Of a stretch of DNA of 64,000 bases, positions 51,983 through 58,531 are shown in pieces. The position numbers and the translations under genes were made by a program. The notes under the pieces were generated by a model. It saw only the letters and a list, made by a program, of their open reading frames with translations, had not been told where the DNA came from and searched no databases. Within the stretch, counting starts at the first letter, position 1. Every line of letters begins with the position of its first letter. The DNA comes from Caldimicrobium sp. (GTDB lineage: Bacteria; Desulfobacterota; Thermodesulfobacteria; Thermodesulfobacteriales; Thermodesulfobacteriaceae), in contig JANXCE010000001.1 in the NCBI GenBank assembly GCA_025059715.1, positions 1-64,000 on the forward strand. Reading direction: 5' to 3'.

Positions 51983-54370
51983 ATGAAGGAGTCTCAGGAA
52001 TTCAATCTCCAAGAATTACCAGAGGGGGAAGTTATTGATGTGCCCGAAAATCTGCCATTAATGGCCATAAGGGATATGGTTCTCTTCCCTTCCATGGTGG
52101 TTCCTCTCTTTGTTGGACGAGTTAAATCTCTCAGGGCGGTAGAGGAGGCTCAAAAAAGGGAGAATCTCATCGTGCTTTCCACTCAAAAGAACCCGCGTTT
52201 GGAAAATCCCCAACAAAAGGACATTTATAAAATTGGAACCTTAGCAATTATTTTAAAGACTATAAGTTTATCGGAAAATAGGAAAAAAGTGATTGTGCAA
52301 ATCCTGTCTAGAGTGGAAATAAAGGATTACTTGAAAATTGAACCTTTCTTTGAGGTAGCCATTGAACCATGTAAAGAGGTAGAGCCTGAGGTTATCACAC
52401 CTGATATAGAGGCTCTGATGCGAAGTGTAAAGTCAAATATTGAGAAATTGCTATCTCTCAAGGGAATTCAAAATCCAGAGCTGAGCCATGTTATTCAATC
52501 AATGGAGGAACCTGGTAGGTTGGCTGATTTAGTTGCTGCCTATCTTAAATTAAAGGTTCCTACTGCTCAAGAACTGCTTGAGACACTTGAGGGTAGGGAG
52601 AGGCTAAGTAAAATCTCTAAGATCCTTCTACAGGAAATTGAAATCACCACTTTACAGAACAAGATACAGAGTGAAGCTCAGGAAGAGATGGGCAGAACTC
52701 AACGGGAATACTTTCTTCGACAACAGCTAAAGGCTATTAAGCGAGAGCTTGGTGAGGAAGAGGACTTAGAATCGGACCTTAAGGAGCTAAAAAGGAAGAT
52801 CAAAAAAGCTAAGATGCCAAAAAAGGTTGAAGAAGAGGCTTTAAAACAGCTGAAGCGATTAGAGCTGATGCCTGCAGAATCCGCAGAAGCAGGGGTAATT
52901 AGAAATTATTTAGAATGGCTTTTAGAGCTTCCCTGGAACATCTCTACGACAGATAATTTGGATTTAAAACATGTGAAGAAAATCTTGGACGAAGATCATT
53001 ATGATCTTGAGAAAATAAAGGAGAGGTTGTTGGAATTTTTAGCAGTCAAAAAATTGAATCCCAATGCCAAGGGAGCTATTATTTGTTTTGTTGGGCCACC
53101 TGGTGTGGGTAAAACCAGTCTTGGAAAATCCATCGCTCGTGCCCTGGGAAGAAAGTTTGTGAGAGTGGCTTTGGGTGGAGTAAGGGATGAAGCGGAGATT
53201 CGTGGTCATCGAAGAACCTATGTGGGATCCATGCCAGGAAGGATAATACAGGGAATAAAACAAGCGGGAGTTAACAATCCAGTATTTCTCTTGGATGAAA
53301 TAGATAAGTTGTGTAGTGATTTTCATGGAGATCCAGGCTCTGCCCTGCTCGAAGTATTAGATCCCGAACAAAATAGGGAATTTGTGGATCATTACTTAGA
53401 TGTGCCCTTTGATCTATCAAAGGTCCTTTTTATAGCCACTGCCAATATGATTGAACCCATTCCCAAGGTGCTCTTAGACAGAATGGAGGTAATCTATCTT
53501 TCAGGTTACACCTTTAAAGAAAAATTAGAGATTGCTAACAGACATCTATTACCGAAATTATTGAAGGAACATGGCTTAAAGAAGAAAGATCTCCAACTTT
53601 CTGAGGAGGTTATCTTAAGGATTATTGAGGAATACACTTCTGAATCAGGAGTAAGGGAATTAGAAAGAAAGTTGGCTACTCTTTGTAGAAAAATAGCTCG
53701 AAAGAAGGCCGAAGGGGAAGAGGGCCCCTTTGAGATTACCCCAGAAAATTTGAAGGACTATCTGGGGCCACCAGAATACCTTGAAGAGATGAGATTAACC
53801 CAAGACGAGATTGGGGTAGCTACTGGGCTTGCCTGGACACCCCATGGAGGGGAGGTCCTTTATGTAGAAGCATTGGTTATGCCTGGGAAGGGGAATTTAA
53901 TTTTAACGGGATCCTTAGGGGATGTTATGAAAGAAAGTGCCCATGCAGCTCTATCTTACATCAGATCTATAAGTAAAGAGCTTAATCTTGATCCTAAGTT
54001 TTATACGAAATATGATTTTCATCTTCATGTGCCTGCTGGAGCTATTCCTAAGGATGGCCCAAGTGCAGGTGTCACTATGGCCATAGCCCTCATTTCCGCT
54101 CTGACCAAAAAACCTGTCTTTAGGGATTATGCTATGACTGGAGAGATCACCCTGAGAGGAAAGATTTTGCCTGTAGGTGGAATCAAAGAGAAGGCCCTTG
54201 CAGCTTTAAGAAAGGGTATTACTCAGGTTATAATTCCCATTCAAAATGAAAAGGATCTCGAAGAAATACCAGAGGATCTTAGATCACAAATTAAATTTAT
54301 AAAAGTTTCACATTTAGATGAAGTAAGAAAATTAGTGATAAAATTTTACAACAGGGAAACAAATGAGTGA
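51983..54370 (+). CDS. lon: ATP-dependent protease Lon
   Basis: 795 residues, normal for LonA, the soluble hexameric protease for misfolded and regulatory proteins. N-terminal LON domain ([22 protein letters not shown]), a coiled linker, AAA+ Walker [22 protein letters not shown], Walker [12 protein letters not shown], and the Ser-Lys protease domain: catalytic Ser in [19 protein letters not shown] and Lys in [18 protein letters not shown] 51983 follows a purine-rich GGGAAGAAGAGAAG site. The stop overlaps the NUDIX start by 8 bp. Confidence 0.97.
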
Positions 54371-54953
54371 GAGAAAAAAGAGAGGCAGAAAGCCTAAGGA
54401 AAGCTTAGAAAGGATCATTCGTGAGCCTATAGAGGTGGTAGATGAAAATTGTCAACCACTTGGAGTATTATCTCGAGGTATGGTTCATGCACGGGGGCTT
54501 TTTCACCGGTCTGTGCATATTTTTCTCTTTAATTCTAAAGGAGAAATTTACTTACAGAGAAGAAATCTTGATCGGGAGGAAAATCCAGGTTTGTGGAGCT
54601 CCTCTGCCTCAGGGCATTTAAGTCCAGGGGAACCTTTATTTTTTGCTGCCCAAAGAGAATTAAAAGAGGAGTTGAATATAAAGGTTAAACTCGAGGAGAT
54701 TGCCCGAGTGCCCCCCTGTCAGGAGACCAATTGGGAATGTGTCACTCTTTTTGTTGCTAAAACCGATAGAATTCCAAAACCAAACCCTTCGGAAATTAGT
54801 GAAGGGCGGTTCTTCAGCCTTCAAGAATTAGAGAGTCTAATAGAGGAGAAGCCTGAAATCTTTAGCCCTGCTTTTTTATATCTTTGGAGACTCTACAAAA
54901 GTACAAAAGGAAACAATCTCAGGGATAATTTCTTTCAAGTTTTCCCTTTCTAA
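54363..54953 (+). CDS. NUDIX hydrolase of the IPP-isomerase-like type
   Basis: 196 residues. A basic N-terminus ([16 protein letters not shown]) is followed by a NUDIX domain: [30 protein letters not shown], and the NUDIX box GHLSPGE plus REL(K)EEL. The order resembles isopentenyl-diphosphate isomerase-like and YfcD-type NUDIX proteins. The substrate is undetermined; there is no sign of the Cys/Glu pair of true type I IDI (inference). It starts inside the last codons of lon, and its last 78 bp overlap the siroheme gene tail-to-tail. Confidence 0.85.
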
Positions 54954-55562
54954 GATAACTTCAATTAGATGCCAGTAACCCCTTTTAATGTATTGCCAAA
55001 GAGGAGCTAAAGCTAATCTTTGAATTTTCACTTCCTTTTCCGCAGGGTCAAGAGGCATCCTTAATAGGCTCTCCCTAATTTTACCCATTAGTCTTACATA
55101 AATTTCAAATTCTTCTTCGAATTCTCTTTCTAAGATTTCTCTCAATCTGCGCGCTAGGGCAGGACTTGCACCACCAGTGGAAATAGCCAAAACAAAATTT
55201 CCTCTTTTTATAGTTGAAGGAACAATAAAGGAGCTTAGGGAAGGTTTATCTACTATATTACAGGGTATACCACGCTTCTCAGCCTCCTGAAAGATTCTCT
55301 CCTGAACCTCAGGATCATTAGTAGCTGCAATTACTATAAAAGCGCCTTCAAGGTCCCCCTCTTGATAGGGTCTACTTTCCCAGTCAATCTTCTTTCTCTC
55401 CGCTAAGTCTCTCAACTTAGGAGTTAAGTTTGGAGAGATCACCCTAATTTGAGCTTGACAAGATAGAAGAGAGAGAATCTTTCTCTCTGCAACCTGACCT
55501 CCACCAATTACTACACACAATTTATCCTTGAGTTTAAGAAAAATTGGATAATATTCAGTCAA
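54876..55562 (-). CDS. Siroheme synthase, precorrin-2 dehydrogenase/ferrochelatase (Met8/CysG N-half)
   Basis: 228 residues. It performs NAD-dependent oxidation of precorrin-2 and, in bifunctional types, Fe insertion to make siroheme, the cofactor of sulfite and nitrite reductases. Motifs: LCVVIGGGQVAERKILSLL (NAD-binding), FIVIAATNDPEVQERI, and IPCNIVDKPSLSSFIVPSTIKRG. The catalytic-region ISTGGASPALARRLREI is present. There is no SAM uroporphyrinogen methyltransferase domain, so this is the dehydrogenase/chelatase half only. TTG start overlapping the RNA-ligase stop by 8 bp; the last gene of the fabG operon. Confidence 0.93.
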   Translation of the reverse strand: MTEYYPIFLKLKDKLCVVIGGGQVAERKILSLLSCQAQIRVISPNLTPKLRDLAERKKIDWESRPYQEGDLEGAFIVIAATNDPEVQERIFQEAEKRGIPCNIVDKPSLSSFIVPSTIKRGNFVLAISTGGASPALARRLREILEREFEEEFEIYVRLMGKIRESLLRMPLDPAEKEVKIQRLALAPLWQYIKRGYWHLIEVILERENLKEIIPEIVSFCTFVESPKI

Positions 55563-56706
55563 TTTCCCCCCAACCTTCCAGTTTATGCCCCCAAAATTGA
55601 GTGGCTCTTGGGTATATTTTCTTAAATCTTACCACAAGATAGCCCTCTTTCCAATCTTTTTCAAGTATTTCCACATTAACTCTGGCTAATTTAAAATGGG
55701 CAAGTAGGGCATTAAAATTTTCTTCCCTTTTGAAGCGCACTTGAAAGAATTCCTCCAAAATCTCCTTTTTTTTGAGTAATCTTAAAGTTTCTTCGAAAAG
55801 ATAGTTCCCTAAAACTTTGTATACCTCATCTTTATATTCCTCAAATTCCAGTAGATTTAGGGCTAACCTAATAAGTCTTAAACTAATGTAGTTTGGTTCC
55901 ACTTCTCCTAAATAGGGAAAGACAACCTTTAAGTCGTTAAGATTAGAATAGGGAGTGACATATTTTACTCTGCTTCCTTCCTTTTCGGGCTTGAAGACTA
56001 CTCCTTCTCTACCCTCTTCATGATATCTCTTGAGTAGAAATTTTATTTTTTGGTAATCAACCTCTGGATCAAAGGGACCATGGATTTCAGGATGTGTTAG
56101 TTGATACTTTTGGAGAAGTATTCTCTTTTGAGAAGTAGGTAAAAATTCTCCCGTTCCAATCTTGGCAAAGTCAAAGACGAAGTATTGAATGTCTTCTTTT
56201 ACTTGTGGAGGCCACTCGCTTACGAAGGGATTTTCCGGTCCAGCAACTTCACAACAGATTATATAATCAGGGAATTCCCTCCAAAATTCTGGAGCTCGGG
56301 GTAGAAATTCCTCCCATCTGTCAGTTGCAAAGGGGCACACATAACCTCTTCGCGTGAAGGCCAGTATATCGTGGCCAACCTTAACTAATCTGACATTATA
56401 GCCCTCTATTTTTTCTTCTGCGTAAAAGGGATATTGTAAATATCTTTTTAAGCCCGTTTGAAGAACATAGATCCTTGGTATGGAGGGATAACCTTTTACC
56501 AGAAGGGTATCATTGAAAAAGGTCCCCACGGGATAATTTTTAAACTCTTTGTTTAGTCTAAAAAATTGATGTTCTTTCCAAGTAAAGAATATTAATTTTC
56601 CTGAGGCATAGGCTTTTTCCCAGTCCTCTATGGGTAGAACTTTTAGGAAGGGATTTCTATCCCAAAAAAAACTAAGAATTTCTAAGACTTCCTTATCTTC
56701 TTTCAA
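55555..56706 (-). CDS. Archaeal-type ATP-dependent RNA ligase (Rnl3/Pab1020 family)
   Basis: 383 residues, the size of Pab1020-family ligases (homodimeric; join or circularise RNA). Nucleotidyltransferase motifs: motif I EEKIEGYNVRL with candidate nucleophile Lys99, motif III CEVAGPENPF, motif IV EGVVFKP (Lys239), motif V VKYVTP (Lys248). The C-terminal helical domain (about 265-383) is the family-specific dimer region. It starts with TTG inside the 3' end of rtcA (overlap 14 bp), so the two are translationally coupled. The pairing suggests one RNA end-processing pathway, RtcA cyclising or adenylating ends and the ligase sealing them. Biological substrate unknown. Confidence 0.85.
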   Translation of the reverse strand: MKEDKEVLEILSFFWDRNPFLKVLPIEDWEKAYASGKLIFFTWKEHQFFRLNKEFKNYPVGTFFNDTLLVKGYPSIPRIYVLQTGLKRYLQYPFYAEEKIEGYNVRLVKVGHDILAFTRRGYVCPFATDRWEEFLPRAPEFWREFPDYIICCEVAGPENPFVSEWPPQVKEDIQYFVFDFAKIGTGEFLPTSQKRILLQKYQLTHPEIHGPFDPEVDYQKIKFLLKRYHEEGREGVVFKPEKEGSRVKYVTPYSNLNDLKVVFPYLGEVEPNYISLRLIRLALNLLEFEEYKDEVYKVLGNYLFEETLRLLKKKEILEEFFQVRFKREENFNALLAHFKLARVNVEILEKDWKEGYLVVRFKKIYPRATQFWGHKLEGWGEID

Positions 56707-57754
56707 TGAGAACCCTCCCTGGTTCTTCTATGGTGATTTTAATGTTTTCTAAGAATTGAGATATTAGCCAGGCTTGAGTTAGAAGGTGTTTAGTTATTTT
56801 TGAGACGCTGTATTGAAAAGATTTATCTTTTCCTTGAAGAAGGCAGAGACTCGCTGGTAGAAGTAGTTGGTCTCCGAGATGTTCTTCAAATTGAGCAGAT
56901 GTCTCCAGAAATTTTAATAACATGTGGCTAGTGTTTCTTCCTACCTCCTCTGCAGGAAGCCCCTTTTTTCCAAGAGAGGAAAATCCAGCTCTCTTAAGAC
57001 CATTTATAGCAACAATTAAGAGCTCAGTTCCCGGGGAAGAACTTTTTACCTTTTCAAAATAGACCTCTCCCTCAAGGTTATTTTCTTTTAAAATCTGAAG
57101 CGCAGAGTTTGCTTGTCGCACCATAATATGCTCCGGCAGTTCTTCACTTATAAGACTTAAGATTTTCAGCCTTTCCACTCTAAAACCCGGAGAGAGCTTA
57201 GGAACTTTTATCTCTTTTATAGGCCAAACCTTTGCCCTAATTTTTCCTCCACCCCTTGGATAGAATCCAACTCTCTCAAGTTCAAGGCTGGCCCTAAATC
57301 CGAAGAGCTCTGCAAGTGGGAGGAAAACCTCTTTTAAGTAGTGATAGGAGGGGCTATAGGGAACATGGGTTCCCCCTTCTAAAAGGAGAGTCCCCCCTTG
57401 TGAGAAGGCTAAAGGATATAGAAGGGTTTGAAAGAGGAGAGAGGTTGAGCCCGCTGTGCCAATTTGAAAGTGGTAAAGTTTATTTTCAGGCTTTTTCGTT
57501 GGAATAAAGATTAATTCTTGAGAATCAAGGTGATCACCCTCTACGAGGGCGGAAGATATTCTTTGACAGGCTTTAACACAGGTGAGATGCTGAGGTTGAA
57601 GCCCAGGTTTTGGTCTATTTGCTCGTATGTTTTTAATCTTAAAGGGTTTATTTAGTATAATGGAGAGGGATAGTGCACTACGGAGAAGTTGACCGCCTCC
57701 TTCTCCGTAAGAACCATCAATGAATAGCAGGCCTTTATCCTCTGTAGAGACCAC
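56693..57754 (-). CDS. rtcA: RNA 3'-terminal phosphate cyclase
   Basis: 353 residues. RtcA uses ATP to convert RNA 3'-phosphate to 2',3'-cyclic phosphate and can also adenylate other nucleic-acid ends. Motifs: FIDGSYGEGGGQLLRSALSLS, RPKPGLQPQHLTCV, HVPYSPSYHYLKEVFLP, FYPRGGGKI, HLGDQLLLPASL and the catalytic His323 in ITKHLLTQAWL. The GTG start overlaps the fabG end by 20 bp. rtcB and rtcR, common E. coli partners, are absent; an Rnl3 ligase follows directly. Confidence 0.94.
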   Translation of the reverse strand: MVSTEDKGLLFIDGSYGEGGGQLLRSALSLSIILNKPFKIKNIRANRPKPGLQPQHLTCVKACQRISSALVEGDHLDSQELIFIPTKKPENKLYHFQIGTAGSTSLLFQTLLYPLAFSQGGTLLLEGGTHVPYSPSYHYLKEVFLPLAELFGFRASLELERVGFYPRGGGKIRAKVWPIKEIKVPKLSPGFRVERLKILSLISEELPEHIMVRQANSALQILKENNLEGEVYFEKVKSSSPGTELLIVAINGLKRAGFSSLGKKGLPAEEVGRNTSHMLLKFLETSAQFEEHLGDQLLLPASLCLLQGKDKSFQYSVSKITKHLLTQAWLISQFLENIKITIEEPGRVLIERR

Positions 57755-58478
57755 CGTTTATGTGAAAAACAGCTCCCGTAATGTAAGAGGCAAGATCACT
57801 GGCTAAAAAAACTGTCAGATGAGCTACTTCCTCGGGAAGACCTGCCCTTTTTAGCGGAATTTCCCTTAAAAAGGCTTCCTTTACCCCTTCGGGAAGCTTT
57901 TCTGTCATATCAGTTGCTATATATCCTGGAGCAATTGCATTAACAGTTATATTTCTACTGGCTACCTCTAAGGATAGAGCTTTAGTAAAGCCTATAAGTC
58001 CCGCCTTTGCGGAGGCATAATTAACTTGTCCTGGATTCCCAGTAAAGGCTACTACCGAAGAAATGTTAATAATTCTTCCCCAGCGAGCTTTCAACATCAT
58101 AGGCAATACCCCTTGAGTGACATAAAAAGCGGAAAACAGGTTTGTCCGAAGCACCACCTCCCAATCTTCCTCTTTCATTCTAAGAAAGAGTTGATCTCTG
58201 GTTATACCTGCATTATTAACTAAGATGTGAATTGTCCCTACTTTTTTTTCTAAGTCTTTAATAGCATCCTTCACTTCCTCAAAATTGGATACGTCAAAAG
58301 GGGCAAGATGGGCCTTCTTTCCCATGGAGATAATTTGTTCTTTTACTTCTTGAGCTTTAGCTTCTGATCCCAAGTAATTTATTATAACCTCTGCTCCTGC
58401 TTTAGCCAATTCTATAGCAATGGCTCTACCTATCCCCCTTGAAGCACCTGTTACTAAGGCAATCCTCCCTTCAAGCAT
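57735..58478 (-). CDS. fabG: 3-oxoacyl-ACP reductase
   Basis: 247 residues from ATG 58476-58478, which has GGGAGG five bases upstream; the longer frame from 58505 has no ribosome site. FabG reduces beta-ketoacyl-ACP with NADPH in fatty-acid elongation. SDR motifs: VTGASRGIGRAIA, LVNNAGITRD, the catalytic ISS...Y(A)SAKAG set (IINISSVVAF, YASAKAGLIGFTK), and the C-terminus ITGAVFHINGGLY. Why it heads an RNA-repair/siroheme operon is unclear. Confidence 0.95.
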   Translation of the reverse strand: MLEGRIALVTGASRGIGRAIAIELAKAGAEVIINYLGSEAKAQEVKEQIISMGKKAHLAPFDVSNFEEVKDAIKDLEKKVGTIHILVNNAGITRDQLFLRMKEEDWEVVLRTNLFSAFYVTQGVLPMMLKARWGRIINISSVVAFTGNPGQVNYASAKAGLIGFTKALSLEVASRNITVNAIAPGYIATDMTEKLPEGVKEAFLREIPLKRAGLPEEVAHLTVFLASDLASYITGAVFHINGGLYRG

Positions 58479-58503: not shown

Positions 58504-58531
58504 ATTTTACATAAAGTAAAATCTTTGTCAA
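58504..58531 (-). promoter_or_regulatory. Promoter of the fabG-rtcA-RNA ligase-siroheme operon
   Basis: On the minus strand TTGACA (plus 58526-58531) and TAAAAT (plus 58504-58509) are spaced by 16 bp, 25 bp before the chosen fabG ATG. Confidence 0.65.

Follow-up and report, generated by a model that had tools for sequence, protein, structure and literature searches.

A conserved pairing of RtcA with an Rnl3-family RNA ligase in the bacterial order Thermodesulfobacteriales and its putative role in RNA-end healing and sealing

ATP-dependent RNA ligases of the Pab1020/MthRnl (Rnl3) family join 5′-phosphate to 3′-OH ends and make AppRNA by themselves; they can also turn a 3′-phosphate into a cyclic phosphate, and they react unproductively with 3′-phosphate ends (PMC5599603). 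When the Thermococcus enzyme (TkoRnl) is deleted, C/D box sRNAs are no longer circularized and aberrant rRNA fragments remain (PMC9014305). In prokaryotes, co-occurrence of Rnl3 (TIGR01209) with HARP, an RNase P made of protein only (TIGR03875, "RNA ligase partner"), has been reported, with adjacency of the two genes described as common but not universal (PMC12153264). RtcA converts 3′- and 2′-phosphates to cyclic phosphates, can adenylate 5′-phosphate ends and may feed RtcB (PMC8131947); in Escherichia coli and Salmonella it is encoded in an rtcBA operon with RtcR (PMC7790460).

Within a 64,000-nt stretch of Caldimicrobium sp. DNA (the window), we analyzed a locus that shares features with each of these systems. 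As in the HARP–Rnl3 pair, the ligase is an Rnl3 and HARP is present in the same genome, and in the basal family of the order the two genes abut tail-to-tail as they do in Aquificaceae, Brocadiales and Nitrospirota; in the window genome and nearly all of the order, however, the ligase gene lies away from HARP and in tandem behind rtcA. This re-linking of a HARP-linked ligase to RtcA through most of an order is the most informative point for specialists, and RtcA in apparent coupling with Rnl3 adds a third enzyme to the HARP–Rnl3 puzzle. As in the Rtc operon, RtcA is coupled to an RNA ligase gene and RtcB is encoded in the genome, but the linked ligase is the unrelated Rnl3, and RtcB (G000:C14:19840-21135) is on a different contig from rtcA (C11). 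RtcR (PF06956) was found in 0 of the 41 available genomes forming our order sample while being detected in the E. coli control, which rules out control of the pair by RtcR and agrees with the original prediction of a locus with neither RtcR nor a linked RtcB. The archaeal Rnl3 enzymes (PAB1020, MthRnl, TkoRnl) share the sequence family, the catalytic lysines and the C-terminal dimerization domain, whereas motif I in the order reads KIEG or KVEG instead of KxDG. RtcA beside a 5′-phosphate/3′-OH ligase instead of RtcB is not covered by current accounts of RtcA in the literature searched, although an earlier survey may mention it. We regard the pair as real and conserved, a new arrangement of known families whose function we infer.

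The genes of the operon are co-directional and overlap at each junction (Table 1). For fabG, the longest open reading frame begins at 58505, yet the originally assigned start is more likely because a −10-like TAAAAT ends at 58504; this hexamer belongs to a strong promoter-like TTGACA-16-TAAAAT (58531-58504) just upstream of the gene that agrees with 11 of 12 positions by consensus matching only. The GTG start of rtcA is uncertain, so its overlap with fabG is given as at most 20 bp. By comparison, the overlap of rtcA with rnl3 is exact, as originally described: the TTG start of the ligase gene (TTG AAA GAA GAT) lies inside the rtcA end (...GAAAGAAGATAA), and the sequence before it, AGGGAGGG, provides a GGGAGGG Shine-Dalgarno-like run, making translational coupling probable. 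No Rfam matches were found around the operon, and both rtcA and rnl3 are single-copy in the 1.84-Mb, 80-contig genome (G000). At the far end of the operon, the convergent NUDIX hydrolase gene shares 78 bp with the met8-like gene at the 3′ end of the latter, and the NUDIX product has a weak, below cut-off similarity to type 1 IPP isomerase.

Table 1. Features of the rtcA–rnl3 locus, in window coordinates
Feature	Position	Strand	Remarks
fabG (3-oxoacyl-ACP reductase)	57735..58478	-	First gene of the operon; NF004197/TIGR01830 above cut-off
rtcA, RNA 3′-terminal phosphate cyclase	56693..57754	-	TIGR03399 equivalog; PF01137 + PF05189
rtcA stop/rnl3 start overlap, 14 bp	56693..56706	-	GGGAGGG ribosome-binding-like run upstream
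rnl3, ATP-dependent RNA ligase, Pab1020/MthRnl (Rnl3) family	55555..56706	-	TIGR01209; PF09414 + PF18330
cysG N-terminal/met8-like precorrin-2 dehydrogenase gene	54876..55562	-	TIGR01470, 162.5 bits; 8-bp overlap with rnl3
NUDIX hydrolase gene	54363..54953	+	PF00293; convergent with met8-like gene, outside the pair

Both proteins pass their family cut-offs with catalytic residues kept, upholding the identities first proposed. RtcA scores 327.7 bits against the TIGR03399 equivalog (cut-off 250.05) with both the RTC and RTC_insert domains present, and its nearest solved relative is the 4o89 RtcA; the catalytic His323, within TKHLLT, aligns with the conserved histidine of the 3kgd and 4o89 chains, the motifs GGGQLLR and IRANRPKPGLQPQH are intact, and the Arg, Gln and His motifs are kept across the order. 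The ligase scores 303.8 bits against TIGR01209 over residues 26-378 (cut-off 136.9) and 103 bits against the Lig_C C-terminal dimerization domain, PF18330 (cut-off 25), with 3qwu, the 8uce group and 2vug (PAB1020) as its closest solved relatives and 5d1o as a further one. The lysines that were altered in the 8ucg and 8ucf chains correspond in the alignment to its motif I Lys99 (EEKIEGYN) and motif V Lys248 (VKYVT). The glutamate that replaces the usual aspartate in motif I was found in 33 of 33 order members examined; among the other Rnl3 sequences, the motif could be located in 78, and 77 of these read KxDG. Since the glutamate is also present in G269, where the two genes are unlinked, the substitution is older than the pairing. 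The chemistry attributed here to RtcA, Rnl3, HARP and RtcB is that expected from the named families.

Across the 41 order genomes, the ligase was detected in 38, RtcA in 38 and both in 37. In 34 of these 37, the two genes lie on one contig and one strand within 1.8 kb of each other, with no intervening gene in 32, so rtcA and rnl3 are linked much more often than chance would give. The interrupted cases are G100, in which a PMT_2 gene separates the two, and G248, with approximately 1.1 kb lacking a clear gene between them; in G399 and G407, one member seems to be missing only because short contigs stop next to the other. The genes lie apart in G269, G395 and G396. Stop/start overlap recurs in most genera, although the start codon varies: in the window genome, three other g1 genomes and g247, as well as in G180 and G345, the ligase begins with a TTG at −14, inside rtcA; the start is at −23 (ATG) and/or −14 (TTG) in g2 and at −20 (ATG) or −17 (GTG) in g3 and g4, while candidate starts in g5, of family f2, are at −8, +4 and +23. 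Translational coupling is therefore probably well conserved in family f1 and partly relaxed in g5. The pairing is thus order-wide, not a peculiarity of the window genome, and its catalytic residues are intact, so that neither of the two findings named in advance as refuting the original prediction was obtained.

The flanking genes, by comparison, change from genus to genus, with at least three neighborhoods carrying the pair. In g3, g4 and g5, rtcA-rnl3 follows one or more ABC ATPase genes and mostly faces an ArsP-like permease gene; in g1 and g247, the order is fabG-rtcA-rnl3-met8 facing nudix-lon; and in g2, a creatininase-family gene takes the place of fabG. The met8-like gene adjoins rnl3 only in g1, g2 and g247. 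Because the pair stays together while both flanks vary, we consider fabG and the siroheme gene incidental: a functional role is ruled out for these neighbors, and the original view that they call for an explanation does not hold. The arrangement in g3 to g5 may be the older one, with linkage lost in G395 and G396, because parts of it persist in genomes with separated genes: rtcA lies behind ABC ATPase genes in G396 and G269, and the ligase gene faces the permease gene in G395. A different change was seen directly in G410 (99% complete), where fabG abuts met8 at the site of the pair (L221; G410:C41, 7612-9044) with rtcA-rnl3 exactly absent. RtcB is kept in this genome, and HARP was not found, although an assembly gap could account for the latter; this is a single event.

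The original prediction missed the unlinked RtcB and also HARP, which tracks Rnl3 in the phylum: among 395 sampled genomes, Rnl3 was found in 21 and HARP above cut-off in the identical 21, in agreement with the earlier report (PMC12153264). In a set of 80 further loci from elsewhere, the bacterial ligase genes mostly face HARP directly. TIGR03875 matches 36 of the 41 order genomes (28 of the 30 of good quality), including that of the window (185 bits; G000:C1:1783-2337, on a different contig from the ligase), and HARP is unlinked to the ligase except in G269. In this member of the basal family, the ligase gene abuts HARP tail-to-tail (L206, 6230-7939), while rtcA follows an ABC ATPase gene at a distance of 1.87 Mb. 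The main text of Seshadri and Gopalan (2025; PMC12153264) does not include this order in its list of HARP-bearing bacteria, and no mention of RtcA was found there. RNase P RNA is present alongside HARP in the window genome (G000:C55:80898-81286) and was identified in 33 of the 41 order genomes, so that tRNA 5′ processing in the window genome has a candidate besides HARP, and HARP is ruled out as the sole RNase P; under strict filters, no RNase P RNA was found in G410, G405, G411 or G418.

RtcA shows no such constancy. It occurs in 134 of the 395 phylum genomes: all 17 order members in this sample, two of the four other Rnl3-positive genomes and 115 of the 374 Rnl3-negative ones, so that a general co-occurrence of RtcA and Rnl3 was not found outside the order. 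RtcA is present in 31 of the 50 genomes from which the named loci come, many Aquificaceae with Rnl3 are without it, and no direct rtcA-ligase tandem was seen at the named loci outside the order. Since RtcA is patchy among Rnl3 genomes, it is a facultative companion of the ligase, and HARP is the constant one. Five Aquificaceae loci (L148, L150, L155, L169 and L172) nevertheless have a tight run of rtcA-gyrA-purS-purQ-rnl3 facing HARP, and an rtcA end also lies at the edge of L151. The GyrA encoded at L155 carries an intein.

In quick maximum-likelihood trees with SH-aLRT support only, the order's ligases form one clade (support 100), as do its RtcA proteins (95), and inside both the structure follows families, with G269 either the basal branch or unresolved in that part of the tree. 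This fits vertical inheritance of both proteins within the order, on which basis the pair was probably joined later from two resident genes and did not arrive ready-made. The single order-level clades, with the unlinked G269 at or near their base, rule out for the order's recent history that the pair was recently transferred from archaea, the archaea sampled being Thermococci and two haloarchaeal plasmid copies only. Describing the ligase as archaeal-type was thus too simple, as Rnl3 is established in the sampled bacterial lineages and the order's copy was vertically inherited. Phage or plasmid carriage was likewise ruled out, with 0 ligase matches in 50,697 phage records and plasmid copies limited to two haloarchaeal megaplasmids, where they adjoin HARP.

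For the function of the pair, our best reading is that RtcA was recruited beside the known HARP–Rnl3 module for a shared task in RNA-end repair or processing. Specifically, rtcA and rnl3 would be transcribed together and coupled in translation, forming a unit for RNA-end healing and sealing that acts alongside the unlinked HARP and RtcB; we assign this model a probability of about 0.5. RNA cut by HARP would present a 5′-phosphate and a 3′-OH, while metal-independent nucleases or hydrolysis would alternatively leave 2′,3′-cyclic, 2′- or 3′-phosphates. Rnl3 would adenylate the 5′-phosphate and join it to the 3′-OH, repairing or circularizing the RNA; RtcA would convert the 3′- and 2′-phosphates that Rnl3 is unable to join into 2′,3′-cyclic phosphates, which RtcB would join to 5′-OH ends. 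The observations beneath this model are the genes with their intactness, conserved linkage and, in other parts of the same genome, HARP, RtcB and RNase P RNA.

The principal alternative, which we consider a tentative but serious possibility, is that rtcA and rnl3 were joined once by rearrangement and serve separate pathways (RtcA with RtcB, Rnl3 with HARP), their overlap making separation costly. Genomes drawn from a single order are not independent observations, and the linkage may have arisen a single time, as the vertical trees and the separated genes of basal G269 allow; neighbors such as fabG, met8, gyrA and purQ show that unrelated genes share operons in these genomes; and beyond the order RtcA and Rnl3 are only weakly associated. 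Except for the mixed operons, these points, together with the separated genes of G395 and G396 and the Rnl3-bearing Aquificaceae that lack RtcA, also weaken the case for a healing and sealing unit. Against the bystander reading, the pair stays together in 34 of 37 genomes while both flanks changed, is absent as a block along with HARP in G410 with RtcB remaining, and has a second, looser counterpart in the operon-like run of Aquificaceae, in another phylum. All three observations support the healing and sealing unit, as do the overlapping stop and start kept in family f1, the identical distribution of HARP and Rnl3 in the phylum, RtcB in the window genome and the family chemistry (PMC5599603, PMC8131947, PMC9014305). 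A separate reservation concerns RtcA, which may be redundant with the ligase because MthRnl itself turns 3′-phosphates into cyclic phosphates (PMC5599603).

It is improbable that RtcA acts as a gatekeeper, capping 3′-phosphates as cyclic phosphates to leave Rnl3 to join or circularize only RNAs with clean 3′-OH ends, for example after maturation by HARP and exonucleases; the unproductive reaction of Rnl3 with 3′-phosphates (PMC5599603) and the tracking of Rnl3 by HARP are in keeping with this, yet other lineages with Rnl3 and HARP manage without RtcA. The adenylate relay of the original prediction, in which RtcA adenylates 5′-phosphate ends and passes AppRNA to Rnl3, draws on the gene coupling and on the ability of E. 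coli RtcA to adenylate RNA as well as DNA at the 5′-phosphate (reviewed in PMC8131947), but is very unlikely because Rnl3 activates these ends unaided (PMC5599603), the ligase here retains the lysines of motifs I and V and so should not depend on another enzyme for activation, and many Rnl3 genomes are without RtcA.

As an RNA-end healing and sealing unit, the pairing would point to a candidate pathway for RNA repair or RNA circle-making in heat-loving bacteria. A stronger version, that RtcA, Rnl3 and HARP constitute one dedicated bacterial pathway in which HARP cuts, RtcA edits 3′ ends and Rnl3 seals or circularizes specific cellular RNAs, we consider doubtful; if true, thermophilic bacteria would possess a programmed circular-RNA or RNA-repair system without C/D box sRNAs and without RtcR. 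C/D box sRNAs are not known from bacteria, so the substrate of the ligase must differ from those archaeal RNAs. The two overlapping thermophile genes offer a concrete system, with proteins expected to be stable and straightforward to assay. Outside the order, we also observed that anammox Planctomycetota, a group missing from the main-text list of PMC12153264, widely carry Rnl3, as at L163 and L164 (no HARP within 6 kb), L180 and other Brocadiales/Planctomycetota loci, usually together with HARP.
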